Positions 3,057-34,180 of a stretch of DNA of 64,000 nt are shown piece by piece. The translations under genes were made by a program, and so were the position numbers. The stretch's first letter is position 1. Each line of letters opens with the position of its first letter. The stretch is taken from NCBI RefSeq assembly GCF_013403985.1, contig NZ_JABFDF010000001.1:310001-374000 (forward strand), read 5' to 3'. A model generated the notes under the pieces. The model saw nothing but the letters and a program-made list of their open reading frames with translations. It was not told the origin of the DNA and searched no databases. The DNA is from Winogradskyella ludwigii. Lineage in GTDB: Bacteria > Bacteroidota > Bacteroidia > Flavobacteriales > Flavobacteriaceae.

Positions 3057-3065
3057 GTGCTCTTG

Positions 3066-3139
3066 TGACCTCGACTGGATTCAAACCAGTAACCTCTTGA
3101 GCCGTAATCAAGTGCGCTATTCAGTTGCGCCACGAGGCC
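3066..3139 (-). tRNA. tRNA-Arg (anticodon ACG)
   Basis: Read on the minus strand, all four arms fold. The acceptor is GGCCTCG/CGAGGTC (one G-U), the D stem GCGC/GCGC, the anticodon stem CTTGA/TCAAG with loop TTACGGC (anticodon ACG), and the T arm ACTGG/CCAGT with loop TTTGAAT. The discriminator base is A and CCA is not encoded. The ACG anticodon is the one normally edited to ICG by TadA. It is a lone tRNA. Confidence 0.95.
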
Positions 3140-3212: not shown

Positions 3213-3220
3213 TATTTTTG
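3213..3220 (+). promoter_or_regulatory. -7 box upstream of the Crp/Fnr regulator gene
   Basis: TATTTTTG is a perfect match to TAnnTTTG and ends only 4 bases before the ATG at 3225. Transcription would start at or almost at the start codon, implying a leaderless or near-leaderless mRNA unless translation begins at the in-frame ATG at 3252. No Crp-like palindrome is seen at the position where the two downstream promoters have one. Confidence 0.45.
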
Positions 3221-3224
3221 AAGT

Positions 3225-3860
3225 ATGATTTCAAAAGAACTTCTCGAACCGATGAGCTACTTATTCGATAATGAAATAATCGATAGTATTGCTCTTGTTG
3301 CCTCTTTAAAAACGTACAAAAAAGCAGATATCATTATTGATATAGGTCAAGACTTAAATTTCATCCCATTACTAGTTAGTGGAAATATTAAAGTTTTAAG
3401 AGAGGATAGTCATGGAGACGAACTTTTATTATATGTCTTAGAAGCAGGAGATACGTGTGCCATGTCACTAACATGCTGTATGTCTAAATCTATTAGTAAA
3501 ATACGCGCTATAGCAGATGAAGATGTTTCGGTTATAATGATACCAATTGCAAACATGAAATTATGGTTTAATTCTAACGAAAGTTGGAGAAGTTTTATAT
3601 TACAAAGTTATCAGGTTCGTTTTGACGAAATGCTAGAAACTATAGACACCCTAGCTTTTATGAAAATGGACGAGCGCTTGTTTAAATATCTTACAGACCA
3701 AGTTAAACTATCTTCTTCAACCAGTTTAGAAGTTACACACCAAGAAATCGCTGAAGATTTAAACACGTCTAGAGTGGTCATTTCTCGCCTATTAAAACAA
3801 TTAGAACGCGAAAACAAAATTGAACTTGGTAGAAACAAGATTTTAGTCCTCGACTTTTAG
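3225..3860 (+). CDS. Crp/Fnr-family transcriptional regulator, likely sulfur-responsive
   Basis: 211 residues with an N-terminal cyclic-nucleotide-binding-like sensor domain (about 25-115), a dimerisation helix (about 118-150) and a C-terminal winged helix-turn-helix (about 165-208, THQEIAEDLNTSRVVISRLL). The sensor domain has three close cysteines, C78, C84 and C85 (AGDTCAMSLTCC), and no Fnr-type N-terminal iron-sulfur cysteine set, so thiol or persulfide chemistry is a plausible signal (inference). In the recognition helix R183 and R188 match Crp R180 and R185, but Crp E181 is replaced by V184. The gene lies directly upstream of the sulfur-handling genes, and Crp-like palindromes precede both of their promoters. 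An alternative start at 3252 is possible. Confidence 0.9.
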   Translation: MISKELLEPMSYLFDNEIIDSIALVASLKTYKKADIIIDIGQDLNFIPLLVSGNIKVLREDSHGDELLLYVLEAGDTCAMSLTCCMSKSISKIRAIADEDVSVIMIPIANMKLWFNSNESWRSFILQSYQVRFDEMLETIDTLAFMKMDERLFKYLTDQVKLSSSTSLEVTHQEIAEDLNTSRVVISRLLKQLERENKIELGRNKILVLDF

Positions 3861-3894: not shown

Positions 3895-3902
3895 TATTTT
3901 TG
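3895..3902 (+). promoter_or_regulatory. -7 box of the sulfur transporter operon
   Basis: TATTTTTG matches TAnnTTTG perfectly. No -33 TTTG is correctly spaced; its place is taken by the palindrome at 3860-3873, as expected of an activator-dependent promoter. The predicted start is near 3909, 8 bases before the ATG at 3917. Confidence 0.55.
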
Positions 3903-3916
3903 TATCAAATTAATCA

Positions 3917-4474
3917 ATGGAATATATTTTACAACCATGGCCATGGTATGTCTCAGGGCCAATTATAGCAATTATAATGTACCTTCTACTTTATTTTGGA
4001 AGAACATTTGGAATGTCCTCGAACCTAAGAACGCTATGTGCTATTGGAGGTGCAGGAAAACATTCTGATTTTTTTAAATTCGACTGGAAAAGCCAAAGAT
4101 GGAACTTGGTCGTAGTACTAGGAGCTATCTTAGGAGGTTTTATTGCTCATTATTATTTATCTGAACCCGCTGCTATAGATCTTAGCGATGCTACAATTAT
4201 AGATTTAAAAACTCTTGGATTTACTGATATTGGTAATAGTTTACTACCTCCAGAATTATTTAGTTGGGAGGCTGTTTTTAGTATTAAAGGTATACTCATA
4301 TTAATCGTTGGTGGTTTTTTAGTTGGTTTTGGTACGCGCTACGCAGGTGGTTGTACTTCTGGCCACGCTATTACAGGATTAAGTAGTTTACAATTACCAT
4401 CATTAATTGCTGTAATAGGTTTCTTTCTAGGTGGCTTAATAATGATTCATCTTATTTTTCCAATACTCTTTTAA
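3917..4474 (+). CDS. YeeE/YedE-family (TsuA-type) sulfur-compound permease, first half
   Basis: 185 residues with about five hydrophobic helices. The family signature GFGTRYAGGCTSGHAITGLS lies in the second half, and its cysteine is the substrate-relay residue in thiosulfate transporters of this family. Bacteroidota typically encode the permease as two consecutive short proteins rather than one of about 350 residues, and the next gene supplies the other half. Inferred role: uptake of thiosulfate or a related sulfur species across the inner membrane. Two bases separate it from the next gene, so co-translation is likely. Confidence 0.88.
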   Translation: MEYILQPWPWYVSGPIIAIIMYLLLYFGRTFGMSSNLRTLCAIGGAGKHSDFFKFDWKSQRWNLVVVLGAILGGFIAHYYLSEPAAIDLSDATIIDLKTLGFTDIGNSLLPPELFSWEAVFSIKGILILIVGGFLVGFGTRYAGGCTSGHAITGLSSLQLPSLIAVIGFFLGGLIMIHLIFPILF

Positions 4475-4476
4475 CC

Positions 4477-4893
4477 ATGGGCAAGTATATAAAATTCTTT
4501 ATCGTCGGTATTCTTTTCGGCATTGTACTAGTAAAGTCTGAAGCCGTCTCATGGTATCGTATTTTTGAAATGTTTAAATTTCAATCGTTTCATATGTATG
4601 GAATCATAGGCACAGCAGTAATCACAGGTATAACTTTATTATTAATTGCAAAACTGCTTAAAGTAAAAAACATTGAAGGATCATTTTTACAAGTACCATT
4701 AAAAGAAAGTGGTTTTAAACGTTATATTATAGGAGGAACAATTTTTGGATTAGGTTGGGCGCTGTGTGGCGCATGTCCTGGACCAATGTATATTCTTATT
4801 GGAACTGGTGTTCCTTCCATACTCATTGTTATTGCAGCGGCTTTATTGGGCACGTTTGTTTATGGTATAGTTAAAGATAAATTACCGCATTAA
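4477..4893 (+). CDS. YeeE/YedE-family (DUF6691-like) permease, second half
   Basis: 138 residues with four hydrophobic helices and the conserved GWALCGACPGPMYILIGTG motif, with two cysteines near the pore in this family. The first half starts with a typical hydrophobic anchor (KYIKFFIVGILFGIVLVKS). It is expected to pair with the 185-residue protein just upstream to form one transporter. It starts two bases after its partner's stop and is followed, one base later, by the TauE/SafE gene. Confidence 0.88.
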   Translation: MGKYIKFFIVGILFGIVLVKSEAVSWYRIFEMFKFQSFHMYGIIGTAVITGITLLLIAKLLKVKNIEGSFLQVPLKESGFKRYIIGGTIFGLGWALCGACPGPMYILIGTGVPSILIVIAAALLGTFVYGIVKDKLPH

Positions 4894-4894
4894 A

Positions 4895-5698
4895 ATGGAT
4901 TTCGTTGAGATTATAGGATATATTGGAGCTTTAATTGTTGGACTTGTTTTGGGTCTAATAGGTGGAGGTGGCTCAATCTTGACCGTCCCAATATTAGTCT
5001 ATTTCTTAGGCTTTAGTCCAATAATTGCCACAAGCTATTCCCTTTTTGTTGTTGGTAGTACAGCTTTAGTTGGTACTGTAAGAAACATAAAGGAAAAGAC
5101 CATAGATTTTAAAACAGCTATAATATTTGCGCTTCCTTCAATAATCACAGTGTTCACAGTTAGAAGTATCGTTATACCTAACTTGCCTGAGGTTATATTT
5201 TCAATTGGCAATTTTTCACTTACCAATTCACTTTTTATTATGTTGTTATTTGCATTGATCATGCTTTTAGCTGGTTGGTCTATGATAAAATCGAAAACAA
5301 TTGCTAGTGATACAGAAATCAGAGATTATGATAATAACCATTATATTGCTATTGGTACACAAGCCATAGGAATTGGAGCTCTAGCAGGATTAGTTGGTGC
5401 AGGAGGCGGATTCTTAATAGTGCCAGCTTTAGTGCTTTTAGTAAAATTACCCATAAAAAAAGCGATTAGCACCTCTTTGTTTATCATATCTATTCAATCG
5501 TTAATAGGCTTTTTAGGTGACTTAAAAACGCTGACCATAGATTGGCGTTTCTTAATAACATTCACTATTTTCTCTATTATTGGTATTTTTATTGGATTGG
5601 CTTTTTCTAAAAAAATTAGTGCAAAAGGATTAAAAAAAGGATTTGGCTATTTCACCTTAGTAATGGCTGTTTATATCGTTTACAAAGAACTTTTTTAA
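4895..5698 (+). CDS. TauE/SafE-family sulfite/sulfonate exporter
   Basis: 267 residues, eight predicted membrane segments in two homologous halves. Each half opens with the glycine-rich family motif (GLIGGGGSILTVPILVYFLG near the start, GLVGAGGGFLIVPALVLL in the middle). Members export sulfite, sulfoacetate or related anions, and a tauE gene also accompanies cstB in the Staphylococcus aureus cst locus. Here it would remove sulfite or other products of persulfide oxidation (inference). It is the last gene of the first transcription unit; the next gene has its own promoter and operator. Confidence 0.88.
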   Translation: MDFVEIIGYIGALIVGLVLGLIGGGGSILTVPILVYFLGFSPIIATSYSLFVVGSTALVGTVRNIKEKTIDFKTAIIFALPSIITVFTVRSIVIPNLPEVIFSIGNFSLTNSLFIMLLFALIMLLAGWSMIKSKTIASDTEIRDYDNNHYIAIGTQAIGIGALAGLVGAGGGFLIVPALVLLVKLPIKKAISTSLFIISIQSLIGFLGDLKTLTIDWRFLITFTIFSIIGIFIGLAFSKKISAKGLKKGFGYFTLVMAVYIVYKELF

Positions 5699-5705
5699 CA
5701 CACTT

Positions 5706-5721
5706 TGTGACAATTATCACA
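5706..5721. promoter_or_regulatory. Crp-type operator upstream of the CstB-like gene
   Basis: TGTGA-CAATTA-TCACA is a perfect match to the classic Crp palindrome TGTGA-N6-TCACA. Its centre (5713.5) is 28.5 bases before the -7 box at 5742, about -42 from the predicted start, the class II activator position. It is the best candidate target for the regulator encoded at 3225-3860. Confidence 0.7.
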
Positions 5722-5741: not shown

Positions 5742-5749
5742 TAAATTTG
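5742..5749 (+). promoter_or_regulatory. -7 box of the persulfide dioxygenase operon
   Basis: TAAATTTG matches TAnnTTTG. No TTTG -33 element is present at the usual spacing; the palindrome at 5706-5721 covers that region. The predicted start near 5756 leaves a leader of about 14 bases before the ATG at 5770. Confidence 0.6.
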
Positions 5750-5769: not shown

Positions 5770-7176
5770 ATGAAAATTGAACAATTATATACAGGTTGTT
5801 TAGCACAGGGTGCTTATTACATTGAATCTGACGGTGAGGTTGCTATAATTGATCCTCTTAGAGAAATACAACAGTATATAGATAAAGCAAAAGTTGATAA
5901 CGCAAAAATTAAATATATTTTAGAGACGCATTTTCATGCCGATTTTGTTTCAGGACATGTTGATTTGGCTAAGAAAACAGGAGCAACTATTGTTTTTGGA
6001 CCTGGAGCATTAACCGAATATAATATTCATTCTGCTAAAGATGGTGAAGAATTAAAACTAGGAAAAGTAACGATCAAAGTTTTACACACTCCAGGACACA
6101 CTTTAGAATCTGCAACGTATTTATTGAAAGATGAAAATGGTAAAGATCATGCTATATTTTCTGGTGATACCTTATTCTTAGGAGATGTTGGTCGCCCCGA
6201 TTTAGCAATCAAATCTGACTTAACTAAAGAAGATTTAGCAGGTATGCTTTTTGATTCGTTAAGAACTAAAATTATGCCTTTGGCAGACGATGTTATTGTT
6301 TATCCTGCTCATGGAGCGGGTTCTGCTTGTGGTAAAAATTTAAGTAAAGAAACTGTTGGTGTTTTAGGAGAACAGAAAAAGACCAATTACGCATTACGTG
6401 CAGATATGACTAAAGCTGAATTTGTAAAAGAAGTTTTAGATGGTATTGCGCCTCCACCTCAATACTTTGCAAAAAATGCGTTGTTGAATAAAATGGGTTA
6501 TGATGATTTTGATACTGTTTTAAAAACAGGTGATATTGCACTTAATCCTGAAGAGTTTGAAGCTATCGCAAATCAGGAATCTGCTTTGGTTTTAGATGTA
6601 AGATCTCAAGCCGATTTTATTAAAGGTCACATTCCTAATTCTATTTTTATAGGATTAAATGGTGGTTTTGCTCCTTGGGTTGGCGCTTTAATTAAAGATA
6701 TTAAACAACCTATAATTTTAGTTGTTCCTGAAGGAAAATCTGCCGAAGCCGTTACACGTTTATCGCGTGTTGGTTACGATAATACTTTAGGCTATCTCAA
6801 TGGTGGCTTAGAAGCTTGGCAAGAAGCAGGAAAAGACATAGACACTTTAGAGTCTATATCTGCAGAAGAATTTGCCAATAGAGCAAAATCTGAAACACTC
6901 AATATTTTAGATGTACGTAAAGATGGAGAATACCAAGCATCGCATTTAGAAGATGTTCAACATTTATCATTAGATGTTATTAATGAAAAAATGAAAGACC
7001 TCAGCAAGGATAAAACCTACTACGTGCATTGTGCTGGTGGTTATCGTTCTGTTATTGCTGAATCTATTTTAAAAGCAAGAGGTTTTAATAACCTGATTGA
7101 TGTAGAAGGCGGATTTGCTGCAATTAAAAATACGGATTTAAAAACGACGGACTTTGTTTGTCCATCAACCTTATAA
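5770..7176 (+). CDS. CstB-like persulfide dioxygenase-rhodanese fusion
   Basis: 468 residues in three domains. The metallo-beta-lactamase persulfide dioxygenase (about 1-230) has HFHADF (H54, H56, D58), H110, D133 and H181. A first rhodanese homology domain (about 255-355) has E321 where the loop cysteine should be, so it is catalytically dead. A second rhodanese (about 362-460) has HCAGGYRS with C421. C187 in AHGAGSACGKN matches the extra cysteine near the dioxygenase site of CstB. The domain order with a pseudo-rhodanese in the middle is that of S. aureus CstB, which converts low-molecular-weight persulfides to thiosulfate. It is the first gene of the second sulfur operon. Confidence 0.92.
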   Translation: MKIEQLYTGCLAQGAYYIESDGEVAIIDPLREIQQYIDKAKVDNAKIKYILETHFHADFVSGHVDLAKKTGATIVFGPGALTEYNIHSAKDGEELKLGKVTIKVLHTPGHTLESATYLLKDENGKDHAIFSGDTLFLGDVGRPDLAIKSDLTKEDLAGMLFDSLRTKIMPLADDVIVYPAHGAGSACGKNLSKETVGVLGEQKKTNYALRADMTKAEFVKEVLDGIAPPPQYFAKNALLNKMGYDDFDTVLKTGDIALNPEEFEAIANQESALVLDVRSQADFIKGHIPNSIFIGLNGGFAPWVGALIKDIKQPIILVVPEGKSAEAVTRLSRVGYDNTLGYLNGGLEAWQEAGKDIDTLESISAEEFANRAKSETLNILDVRKDGEYQASHLEDVQHLSLDVINEKMKDLSKDKTYYVHCAGGYRSVIAESILKARGFNNLIDVEGGFAAIKNTDLKTTDFVCPSTL

Positions 7177-7188
7177 ACCTATACTGTT

Positions 7189-7392
7189 ATGAAAAAAAAC
7201 ATGGGCACTTTAGATAAAGGTATTAGAATTGCTGCTGCAGTTATTATAGCCTTACTCTATTATTTTAATGTTATTGAAGGAACGTTAGCTTACGTCCTGA
7301 TGGCATTTTCAATTATATTCTTATTAACAAGCTTTATCAGCTTTTGTCCTTTATACACCTTATTTGGTTGGAACTCTTGTAAACTTAAATAA
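7189..7392 (+). CDS. DUF2892 (YgaP-like) small inner membrane protein
   Basis: 67 residues with two transmembrane segments (about 11-28 and 33-52) and the family-typical start MGTLDKGIRI and end FCPLYTLFGWNSCK. Proteins of this family occur alone or fused to rhodanese domains (E. coli YgaP) and are common beside sulfur-transfer genes. The two cysteines (in FCPLY and NSCK) are conserved features of the family. It lies 12 bases after the CstB-like gene and 8 before the HMA gene, so all three are almost certainly cotranscribed. Confidence 0.85.
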   Translation: MKKNMGTLDKGIRIAAAVIIALLYYFNVIEGTLAYVLMAFSIIFLLTSFISFCPLYTLFGWNSCKLK

Positions 7393-7400
7393 AAACAAAC

Positions 7401-7670
7401 ATGGAAAGCACTCTTAATATTCAAAACTTAAAATGTGGTGGCTGTGCAAATACTATTGTAACACAGTTATCTAAATTAGAAGGTATTTCTGAGGTTATTG
7501 TGAATAACGATACTGATGAAGTAAGTTTCACTTCCGTTTCTGAAAACGACATTACTATTGCAAAAGAAAAATTATCAGATTTAGGTTATCCTATTGTTGG
7601 TGATGCTAACTCGTTACCAAAGAAAGCAAAATCTTTTGTGAGTTGTGCTGTAGGTAGAATGACGAAATAA
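7401..7670 (+). CDS. HMA (heavy-metal-associated) domain protein
   Basis: 89 residues, cytosolic, with one ferredoxin-like HMA fold. The metal-binding loop is CGGC (C12 and C15) in NLKCGGCANT; the usual methionine two residues before the first cysteine is replaced by leucine. A third cysteine lies near the C-terminus (SFVSCAVGR). As the last gene of the operon it may handle copper or another thiophilic metal whose availability is changed by sulfide, or act in sulfur transfer (both inference). A terminator follows. Confidence 0.85.
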   Translation: MESTLNIQNLKCGGCANTIVTQLSKLEGISEVIVNNDTDEVSFTSVSENDITIAKEKLSDLGYPIVGDANSLPKKAKSFVSCAVGRMTK

Positions 7671-32543: not shown

Positions 32544-32610
32544 AAGTATATTTGAGTATTACAATTGCGTTTTACGTTACAATTGTTACAATGCTTCAGT
32601 ATTAATATTT

Positions 32611-32618
32611 TATCTTTG
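32611..32618 (+). promoter_or_regulatory. -7 box of the DUF983 gene
   Basis: TATCTTTG fits TAnnTTTG and places the start near 32625, about 31 bases before the ATG at 32656. It is in the 112-base divergent region shared with the ABC-F gene. Confidence 0.45.
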
Positions 32619-32655: not shown

Positions 32656-33042
32656 ATGATTAGAAAAGGAATGAAACTTTATAGTATTCTTTTTGGTGTT
32701 TGTCCAAAATGTCACCAAGAATCGATGTACGTAAACAAAAACCCTTATGTACTCTCTGAAGTTATAAAAATGAAAGAAACTTGCTCTCATTGTAAAACAA
32801 AATATGAGATAGAGCCTTCGTTTTTCTATGGTTCTATGTACGTGAGTTATGGTGTTGGTATTGCCTTTGCTGTAGCTGCATTTATTATTAGCTACAATAT
32901 ATTAGAATCTAATTTAACCATAGCATTTATTGCAATTGTAGCCACTCTAATTGGTTTTGCTCCTATTATAATGCGTTTATCTCGTAATATTTGGATTAAT
33001 ATTTTTATGAGTTATGATAAAAATCTTGTAAAAGAGAAATAA
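32656..33042 (+). CDS. DUF983 membrane protein with zinc ribbon
   Basis: 128 residues. Two cysteine knuckles, CPKC (near residue 17) and CSHC (near residue 43), precede two membrane helices (about 65-85 and 90-110). DUF983 is unassigned; related proteins occur near cytochrome oxidase genes in other bacteria. Here it stands alone, divergent from the ABC-F gene. Confidence 0.85.
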   Translation: MIRKGMKLYSILFGVCPKCHQESMYVNKNPYVLSEVIKMKETCSHCKTKYEIEPSFFYGSMYVSYGVGIAFAVAAFIISYNILESNLTIAFIAIVATLIGFAPIIMRLSRNIWINIFMSYDKNLVKEK

Positions 33043-33133: not shown

Positions 33134-34180
33134 CTATGAGTTGAAACGATTAACATCAATTTCAACATCTAAAGCTTGGTCATTTTCAATAAAATTAAAA
33201 AGTTCTTTTGCTACATAAGGTGAAATCATAACACCTCTAGAACCTAATCCATTAAGAATATACAGATTTTTAAATTCAGAATGTCTACCTACTAATGGTC
33301 GTCTATCTTTTACTGTCGGTCTTATCGCTGCTTCATGTTTTACAACAGTAACATCACAATCTATAAAGGTTTTTAATTTTGTAAGTAACTCTTCTTTACC
33401 TTCCTCTGTTGGCGTTTTGGTTTTATCTTTCCAATTATAAGTAGAACCTACAGTATATAAATCATCTCCAAGCGGAATGATAAATACCGAAGCCTTAATC
33501 GCATAATCCATTTTTAAATCGGGTGCTTTTACTGTAAGCACTTCTCCTTTTGTACCTTCAAGTGGAATAGTTTTGAAATACGGATTCTGCTTTACACCAA
33601 AACCTTCGGCAAAAATTAGATGCTTAGCTTTAAGATTTCCGTATTGAATAGAATTATTTTCAAAATGAATTTGATCATGTTGAAATTCAACTTCACTCAA
33701 ACAATCATGTTGTTTTAAAAATATCTTGTAACTTGTTATAAGCATTTCAGTATCAATTCTACCAGCATTTAGCACTTCTCCAAAACCAAAAGATGCATCT
33801 ACAGAAGGATTAGAATTTTTTATGAGGTCAGAAGACAGATAAGGTTCTATATTAGGCTTATCCATAGCGCTAAACCATCGGTTTTGTTCTTCTATTGAAG
33901 AGAAACGTCTTAGGATTTGAAGCTTATAATCGACCTTAATACCTAACTCTTTTTCAATTTTCGCATAAACAGGAAGTGCAATACTCATCTGTTCTTTAGC
34001 TTTCCAAACGGCAGAAAATCGTTTAAGAATAACAGGGTTATAGAGTCCTGCTGCAACTAAAGACGACTTTTGAGAATTGTTATCAAAGACCACAAATGTT
34101 TTATTATTACTTCTTAATTTCTCACAAAATGCAATACTTGCTAACCCACAACCTACTATAATATAATCGACTTCTTTCAT
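33134..34180 (-). CDS. FAD-dependent oxidoreductase (DadA/ThiO type)
   Basis: 348 residues. The Rossmann dinucleotide motif at the start is VGCGLASIAFCEKL (GxGxxx), and the FAD-binding C-terminal segment contains RPTVKDRRPLVGRH and LYILNGLGSRGVMISPYVAKEL, typical of DAO-family oxidases and of the MnmC C-terminal half. The substrate is unknown; amino-acid or tRNA-modification oxidation are the family options. No operon partner. Confidence 0.85.
   Translation of the reverse strand: MKEVDYIIVGCGLASIAFCEKLRSNNKTFVVFDNNSQKSSLVAAGLYNPVILKRFSAVWKAKEQMSIALPVYAKIEKELGIKVDYKLQILRRFSSIEEQNRWFSAMDKPNIEPYLSSDLIKNSNPSVDASFGFGEVLNAGRIDTEMLITSYKIFLKQHDCLSEVEFQHDQIHFENNSIQYGNLKAKHLIFAEGFGVKQNPYFKTIPLEGTKGEVLTVKAPDLKMDYAIKASVFIIPLGDDLYTVGSTYNWKDKTKTPTEEGKEELLTKLKTFIDCDVTVVKHEAAIRPTVKDRRPLVGRHSEFKNLYILNGLGSRGVMISPYVAKELFNFIENDQALDVEIDVNRFNS

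Follow-up and report, generated by a model that had tools for sequence, protein, structure and literature searches.

In a 64,000-nucleotide stretch of the Winogradskyella ludwigii genome (GCF_013403985.1, NZ_JABFDF010000001.1, positions 310,001-374,000 of the forward strand; hereafter the window, in which position 1 is the first letter), a gene for a Crp/Fnr-family regulator stands before genes that handle persulfide. On balance, we read this regulator as an activator of reactive-sulfur genes that probably senses persulfide through a near-invariant cysteine, C78. Taken part by part, its control of these sulfur genes, on which synteny, the operator and the sites in trans agree, is predicted with high confidence, its role as an activator is predicted to be likely, and C78 is a candidate site for sensing reactive sulfur to which we give slightly better than even chances. 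The fold, the conservation of the cysteines, the loss of the ligands for cyclic AMP (cAMP), the synteny, the operator, its geometry relative to the promoter and the covariation of half-site with residue 184 are all read from sequence. More broadly, we see an even chance that the protein represents a cross-phylum class of Crp/Fnr activators with a C-x5-C motif, in which C78 is essential, the cAMP pocket serves instead as a thiol site for persulfide or polysulfide, and one conserved sulfide-detoxification cassette is driven from TGTRAC/GTYACA operators, with the half-site set by residue 184 and a spacer of N4 in Bacteroidota and N3 in Proteobacteria.

Both halves of the Crp/Fnr architecture were found in the regulator above the curated Pfam cut-offs (cNMP_binding, 1.8e-7; HTH_Crp_2, 4.3e-11), and the AlphaFold2 model, with a mean predicted local distance difference test score (pLDDT) of 89, had Crp/Fnr folds as its top PDB matches. 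Domains, model and structural matches thus place the protein, with its cNMP-binding fold and Crp-type helix-turn-helix (HTH), in the Crp/Fnr superfamily. Among the matches listed, no NCBIfam equivalog reached its cut-off. The closest named regulator is from W. psychrotolerans (89% identity). A sequence-only reading of this DNA had described a Crp fold carrying three cysteines, and this is confirmed by the translation, Pfam and the model: the protein has exactly three, C78, C84 and C85, in AGDTCAMSLTCC. In the model, C78 immediately precedes helix 79-86 and C84 and C85 lie within it; in a profile alignment with E. coli CRP (4bh9), C78 corresponds to I70 and C84/C85 to E77/E78. Residues E72, R82 and S83 of Crp, the ligands of the cAMP phosphate, are not kept in the regulator. 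Because the three cysteines align in the cAMP-phosphate region of Crp and fall at or in helix 79-86 of the model, alignment and model place them in the effector pocket, the cAMP site of Crp. With its phosphate ligands lost, cAMP sensing by the regulator was rejected. We also rejected an FNR-type cluster: the [4Fe-4S] O2 sensor FNR uses four cluster-ligand cysteines, three of them N-terminal, and these four ligand positions are absent from a protein that has only C78, C84 and C85.

Across homologues, C78 is the cysteine that persists. Among 113 homologous regulators from the first 110 loci, C78 was present in 112, C84 in 98 and C85 in 101. At a threshold of E 0.001, which also lets in weak matches to other Crp/Fnr proteins, the profile matched in 151 of 197 genomes of the order and below. 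In 16 plasmid loci from outside the Bacteroidota, hand-picked out of 27 and 287 plasmid records, 13 regulators had C78 with C84, one had C78 alone and two (Lactiplantibacillus and Deinococcus) had neither, and C85 occurred in none of the 16. The conserved cysteine expected of a persulfide sensor is thus present, with C78 in 112 of 113 homologues and 14 of 16 non-Bacteroidota loci. The sequence-only reading had treated C78/C84/C85 as one cluster; of this, C78 stands, followed by the pair C78-x5-C84, and the triplet as a conserved unit was rejected, C85 having been seen in Bacteroidota only. A distribution restricted to Flavobacteria was rejected as well: the C-x5-C motif recurs in Proteobacteria and Bacillota, and Alphaproteobacteria share the sulfur cassette too. 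Some C78-only and C78/C85 members still adjoin yeeE or rhodanese genes. At one locus (L078), tandem regulators (open reading frames (ORFs) at 2430- and 4124-) lie by yeeE; one has C78, and its companion, which shares 33% identity with the window protein, is cysteine-free in the motif and possibly a non-sensing partner.

We counted as a sulfur neighbour any gene for YeeE, persulfide dioxygenase (PDO), rhodanese, SQR or TauE that lay no more than 5 kb from a regulator. With near-duplicates included, such a neighbour was found at 210 of 249 C78 loci and at 3 of 58 Crp/Fnr loci that lack C78; after clustering at 70% identity, with a single representative kept for each cluster, the figures were 60/88 and 3/34 (Fisher 2e-9), the choice of representative shifting the former by one (60/88 or 59/88). 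Since the profiles for rhodanese, SQR and the like derive from neighbours in Flavobacteriales, distant neighbours are undercounted in these figures. The commonest neighbours among the 88 C78 clusters were PDO (33), rhodanese (26), TauE (24) and YeeE (21-22). The placement of the regulator before persulfide-handling genes therefore holds, and the link spans Flavobacteria to Alphaproteobacteria: the same cassette, in varying completeness, is present at 10 of the 16 non-Bacteroidota plasmid loci, all ten alphaproteobacterial with C78 and C84, and is not carried by the remaining six. The alphaproteobacterial version encodes a YgaP-like protein, YeeE, DUF6691, a hydrolase of the metallo-beta-lactamase fold, a sulfur transferase/FAD (flavin adenine dinucleotide) oxidoreductase and SulP, and at 9 of 11 alphaproteobacterial loci fetched, the annotated gene next 3' of the regulator is DUF2892/YgaP-like. 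A test had also been proposed, of whether the three cysteines are conserved only beside cstB-like genes. We found a weak tendency in this direction (sulfur neighbours in 33 of 41 triplet clusters versus 27 of 47 non-triplet C78 clusters, p 0.02) and no exclusive link, as those 27 have sulfur neighbours without the triplet, none was found for 8 of the 41 triplet clusters, and C84 shows no trend on the tree. Weight accordingly moved from the triplet to C78. In a C78/C85 group (L085, L088, L090 and L105), rhodaneses with lipoprotein-like starts and a porin-like protein lie nearby, perhaps a surface sulfur-acquisition system; L085 and L105 also have another YeeE-like pair.

The genes 3' of the regulator (Table 1) form an apparent operon. 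Its PDO-like protein combines a metallo-beta-lactamase domain with two rhodanese domains, the architecture of a CstB-type PDO-rhodanese, and has an HCAGGYRS loop in the final rhodanese domain only; in CstB, the catalytic cysteine is likewise confined to the last rhodanese domain. The operon closes with a heavy-metal-associated (HMA) protein, and a gene of the same cluster lies near the regulator in 22 loci, one further member having been Pfam-checked. This gene, and the grouping of three cysteines, would fit a sensor that holds a metal such as Cu(I) or an Fe-S centre through C78/C84/C85, with the sulfur genes as a secondary response. We regard this as improbable, given that about half of the C78-only (9/18) and C78/C85 (6/11) clusters keep sulfur neighbours, that the four ligand positions of FNR are absent and that the gene table, which is incomplete, lists no HMA product for the ten non-Bacteroidota cassette loci. 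A sensor of sulfur oxyanions (thiosulfate or sulfite) in the former phosphate pocket, with a C78 that is structural or S-sulfonated, is less probable still. The cysteines do lie where Crp holds the cAMP phosphate, and the operon has TauE together with YeeE halves related to the thiosulfate transporter TsuA, at 36.9 bits, far under the cut-off of 400; against this, the phosphate-binding Arg and Ser of Crp are not kept, and the PDO and SQR neighbours indicate a step upstream of sulfite.

Table 1. Positions of the regulator, its predicted sites and its predicted target genes in the window.
Feature	Position	Strand	Basis or remark
Crp/Fnr-family regulator	3225..3860	+	ATG start, 211 aa; Pfam, AlphaFold2 model, PDB matches
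Cys78 codon, near-invariant Cys, start of effector-pocket (phosphate-binding cassette) helix	3456..3458	+	translation, homologue counts, model
Cys84 and Cys85 codons	3474..3479	+	C84 common to Proteobacteria and Bacillota; C85 seen in Bacteroidota only
Recognition-helix residues R183-V184-V-I-S-R188 (Crp R180-E181...R185)	3771..3788	+	translation, profile alignment
TATTTTTG, Bacteroidota -7 box of the regulator's own promoter	3213..3220	+	sequence; consensus of 51 aligned upstream regions (36/51 rows listed)
Operator (predicted) AGTCACTTTTGTAACA, overlaps regulator stop codon	3859..3874	+	site scans
TATTTTTG, -7 box of yeeE promoter, 28 nt from operator centre	3895..3902	+	sequence, site-plus-box scan
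YeeE/YedE sulfur transport, half A (PF04143)	3917..4474	+	Pfam
YeeE/YedE sulfur transport, half B (DUF6691/PF04143)	4477..4893	+	Pfam
TauE/SafE sulfite exporter family	4895..5698	+	Pfam
Second operator-like site TGTGACAATTATCACA, tauE-PDO gap	5706..5721	+	site scans
TAAATTTG, -7 box of PDO promoter, 28 nt from centre of second site	5742..5749	+	site-plus-box scan
PDO-like metallo-beta-lactamase fused to two rhodanese domains (CstB-like architecture)	5770..7176	+	Pfam
YgaP-like transmembrane protein (PF11127)	7189..7392	+	domain match
HMA protein, final gene of apparent operon	7401..7670	+	domain match
Third site CGTTACAATTGTTACA	32575..32590	+	TAnnTTTG box 28 nt from centre (32611-32618)
DUF983 protein (PF06170), predicted target in trans	32656..33042	+	site scan, domain match

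The gap between the regulator and the sulfur genes contains the palindrome TGTAAC-N4-GTTACA. A match to at least nine of its ten positions was found 3' of the regulator in 71 of 156 sulfur-linked loci (a count that includes near-duplicates), 7 of 36 other C78 loci, none of 51 controls and 0.9% of dinucleotide shuffles; per cluster representative, it was found in 26/59 sulfur-linked, 5/29 other C78 and 0/34 C78-less cases. A TAnnTTTG box lay at most 60 nt from the site in 61 of 92 site-bearing loci, and in 58 of these 61 the box started 28-29 nt from the centre of the site. Because the -7 box starts at this distance, the operator centre is at about -41, the position of a class II activator. Within the window, the combination of site and box matched four times (at 3859, 5706, 32575 and 33338), as compared with a mean of 0.01 in 100 shuffles; the match at 33338 is inside a gene on the opposite strand and is probably due to chance. 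In a comparison that took 26 of the regulator loci, a few of them being the same genome twice, operators stood at yeeE in 13 of 25 loci with the regulator and in none of four without it. Operators 5' of the regulator were rare, in 5 of 156 sulfur-linked loci versus 2 of 51 controls, which leaves autoregulation unsupported. The upstream block of the regulator is strongly conserved across the genus, and its mRNA is perhaps leaderless, because the -7 box stops only 4 nt short of the ATG. A tRNA-Arg (acg) gene lies directly 5' of the regulator on the minus strand, at 3065-3139.

In the recognition helix, R180, E181 and R185 of Crp align with R183, V184 and R188, so that the earlier assignment of Crp E181 to V184 is correct, and the possible difference in DNA preference raised with it is borne out: the half-sites are mostly TGTAA instead of TGTGA, and they track residue 184. 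Of the 148 half-sites of Val184 members, 115 had A at the third base and 11 had G; of the 18 from Glu184 members, 14 had G (Fisher 1e-10, for half-sites that are not independent). On the tree, this comparison comes down to three independent pairs, of which an average of 2.8 agree (p 0.25). CRP joins Glu at 181 to TGTGA-N6-TCACA sites; here residue 184 is Val, and the sites of Val184 members are mostly TGTAA-N6-TTACA. All 12 Proteobacteria loci scanned, each with Glu184 (four Bacillota/Deinococcota loci were left out), had the form GTGAC-N3-GTCAC, a form chosen after inspection and found in 8.8% of shuffles. In the sequences compared, half-site choice covaries with residue 184. The proteobacterial operator (L191-L209) is an odd-length palindrome, with a spacer of 3 nt versus 4 in Bacteroidota.

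Several results weigh against our reading. No good site was found at 33 of the 59 sulfur-linked clusters, and no sulfur neighbour for 28 of the 88 C78 clusters. C78 changes only twice on the tree and so marks one clade; the link between C78 and sulfur genes is therefore one clade-level fact rather than many independent events, and the two independent pairs available for C78 and sulfur neighbours show no trend. Sulfur neighbours accompany 45 of 59 C84 clusters and 15 of 29 C78 clusters without C84 (p 0.03, a weak difference), and C84 follows no trend in the six independent pairs that the tree offers. Because clusters without C84 keep sulfur neighbours and the tree gives no C84 trend, a C78-C84 polysulfide cannot be a universal mechanism. 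At the PDO promoter, operators were present in 14 of 26 loci with the regulator, and a site matching 9-10 of 10 positions was kept in two of six without it, in genomes that are 89% and 85% complete. The half-sites there are mostly of the G type (TGTGAC/GTCACA-like), though residue 184 is Val in the genus. Since these sites are of the G type and partly kept without the regulator, the PDO-promoter site may be used by a second Crp-like protein, and its owner is uncertain. Finally, seven genomes without the regulator also average 17.4 forward versus 12.9 reversed sites, so that site numbers give no clean separation.

Beyond the operon, 35 sites in the genome of W. ludwigii match the pattern with one mismatch or none, as compared with 13 for the reversed pattern. 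Six of the 35 lie together within 23.4 kb, in one sulfur/redox island (C22 106000-144000; corrected P 1.4e-5), which encodes an SQR-like FAD enzyme, cytochrome bd, a second PDO-rhodanese, peroxiredoxin, cytochrome c, thioredoxin and TolC/HlyD. Five of these six sites precede the TolC, SQR-like, cydA, peroxiredoxin and cytochrome c genes, and the sixth stands before an ORF of unknown function; a further site in the genome is found at a lone rhodanese gene, 5' of its second possible start. No regulator of the family lies within the island, the family profile has one match in the genome, and none of the six other Crp/Fnr proteins read, of seven, has a cysteine at position 78. Between two and seven sites occur at each of seven comparable loci in six relatives; five of these loci were picked for their site clusters, and one of the six relatives, with an assembly that is 75% complete, lacks the regulator. 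Across the genus, forward sites exceeded the reversed control in 53 of 68 genomes.

The third site in the window stands before a DUF983 gene. This gene, unlinked to the regulator, is present in all 68 genomes of the genus; a close match to the regulator is missing in seven of them, all of which keep PDO and four of which keep yeeE. We compared 50 genomes (30 best matches and 20 chosen, with the sites of three, W. ludwigii included, seen beforehand) and found the DUF983 operator in 37 of 43 with the family regulator and in one of seven without it (Fisher P 4e-4). That one genome is 75% complete, and leaving it out gives P 7e-5. Three of the seven regulator-less genomes have near-miss forms at the same position, such as CGCTACAATTGTTACA, which look like decayed sites. 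On the tree, two pairs on supported branches went the same way in 0.8, too few for a test. At locus L083, a DUF983-like gene lies directly 3' of the regulator. Given this neighbour and an operator of the same geometry, DUF983 may be part of sulfur or thiol homeostasis.

The island bears on the strongest rival explanation, that the protein is a general thiol-redox (disulfide) sensor whose C78 is oxidized by peroxide, disulfide stress, nitric oxide (NO) or O2, and whose oxidative-defence regulon overlaps with the sulfur genes. Predicted targets do include peroxiredoxin, thioredoxin and cytochrome bd, genes for cytochrome bd and peroxiredoxin also lie near alphaproteobacterial members, and a C78-only group in other Bacteroidota (L277 and L283-L286, with a CIMS or CVMS motif) has a thioredoxin gene and no other gene of the sulfur set within 5 kb. 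We nevertheless consider this explanation unlikely: PDO, rhodanese, TauE and YeeE are commonest in the sulfur-neighbour loci and recur in Alphaproteobacteria, and cytochrome bd fits sulfide too, as sulfide induces cydAB in Acinetobacter (PMC7315123).

For a regulator that senses reactive sulfur through C78, we propose the following mechanism as the most economical one. Oxidation of sulfide would yield persulfide or polysulfide, which would modify C78 in the pocket where Crp binds cAMP. In most members, C84 (or C85) would resolve this modification to a di- or polysulfide link, and in C78-only members a C78 persulfide or an inter-subunit bond would take its place; because such members exist, a C78-C84 bridge is not needed everywhere. 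The modification would mimic ligand binding and bring about the DNA-binding form of the protein, and the dimer would then bind the operator and activate from about -41 in class II fashion. PrfA and Vfr are themselves Crp/Fnr proteins. A sensor of a low-molecular-weight thiol of their kind, with C78 in a mixed disulfide or no bond formed, is the least likely explanation that we considered: both are reported to respond to glutathione (PMC7315123), but the regulator shows no particular sign of a thiol ligand and its neighbours handle sulfane sulfur.

If the sulfur reading is correct, a large, well-studied family of activators would gain a branch of thiol-based sensors for reactive sulfur; the cysteine motif occurs in three phyla or more, and the sulfur cassette in two or more. 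An operator is already defined and a regulon predicted, and the regulator would also provide a clean case of a recognition-helix residue, 184, that sets half-site choice. To our knowledge, the dedicated bacterial persulfide sensors in the literature searched belong to other families, namely ArsR, CsoR and sigma-54 regulators; MarR-type proteins and OxyR also come up there. No Crp/Fnr persulfide sensor is described in the papers listed from that literature, which comprised open PMC papers, with subscription papers and preprints outside its scope; the Crp/Fnr fold and persulfide sensing are known separately, and their union in a dedicated sensor of a sulfur operon is undescribed there. CstR, a repressor of the CsoR family with the CsoR fold, controls CstB-type genes. 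By Pfam, the regulator has no ArsR, CsoR or sigma-54 domain and thus falls outside SqrR/BigR, CstR and FisR.

Much as is predicted for the regulator here, BigR/SqrR of the ArsR family is a dithiol sensor set over a yeeE-yedE-pdo2 operon, which in Acinetobacter is repressed by the persulfide sensor BigR (PMC7315123); together with the sulfide-induced cydAB, this fits the sulfur reading of the regulator. BigR/SqrR differs in protein family and cysteine sites, and BigR represses, whereas the regulator here is placed as an activator. FisR activates a PDO/SQR/TauE operon upon sulfide (PMC7315123), but it is an AAA+ sigma-54 regulator, and the window regulator has no such Pfam match. The Crp-like A1S_1182 of Acinetobacter baumannii, also a Crp/Fnr protein, is strongly persulfidated in sulfide-exposed cells; it is close to E. 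coli Crp (50%) and Vfr (54%), its cysteine is opposite the ligand pocket rather than in it, and the passages used give no link to a sulfur operon (PMC7315123). RedB of Rhodobacter capsulatus, compared here by description only, represents another Crp/Fnr branch with a conserved cysteine whose role is unknown (PMC9603517); its repression of sulfate assimilation is indirect (PMC9603854). The word 'persulfide' is absent from the main text of the latter paper and 'sulfide' from that of the former. The closest solved structure by sequence is 3DV8 (EUBREC_1222 of Eubacterium rectale, 7e-31), a structural-genomics entry whose title names no function; C78 and C84 are aligned in it, but C85 is lacking. 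Cyanobacterial NtcA, which also has Arg-Val in its recognition helix, recognizes GTA-N8-TAC, a site compatible with the operator found here. Fold and HTH are common to E. coli CRP, NtcA and the regulator; their pockets bind cAMP or 2-oxoglutarate, whereas here the pocket is one of cysteines, and residue 181 of Crp is Glu.
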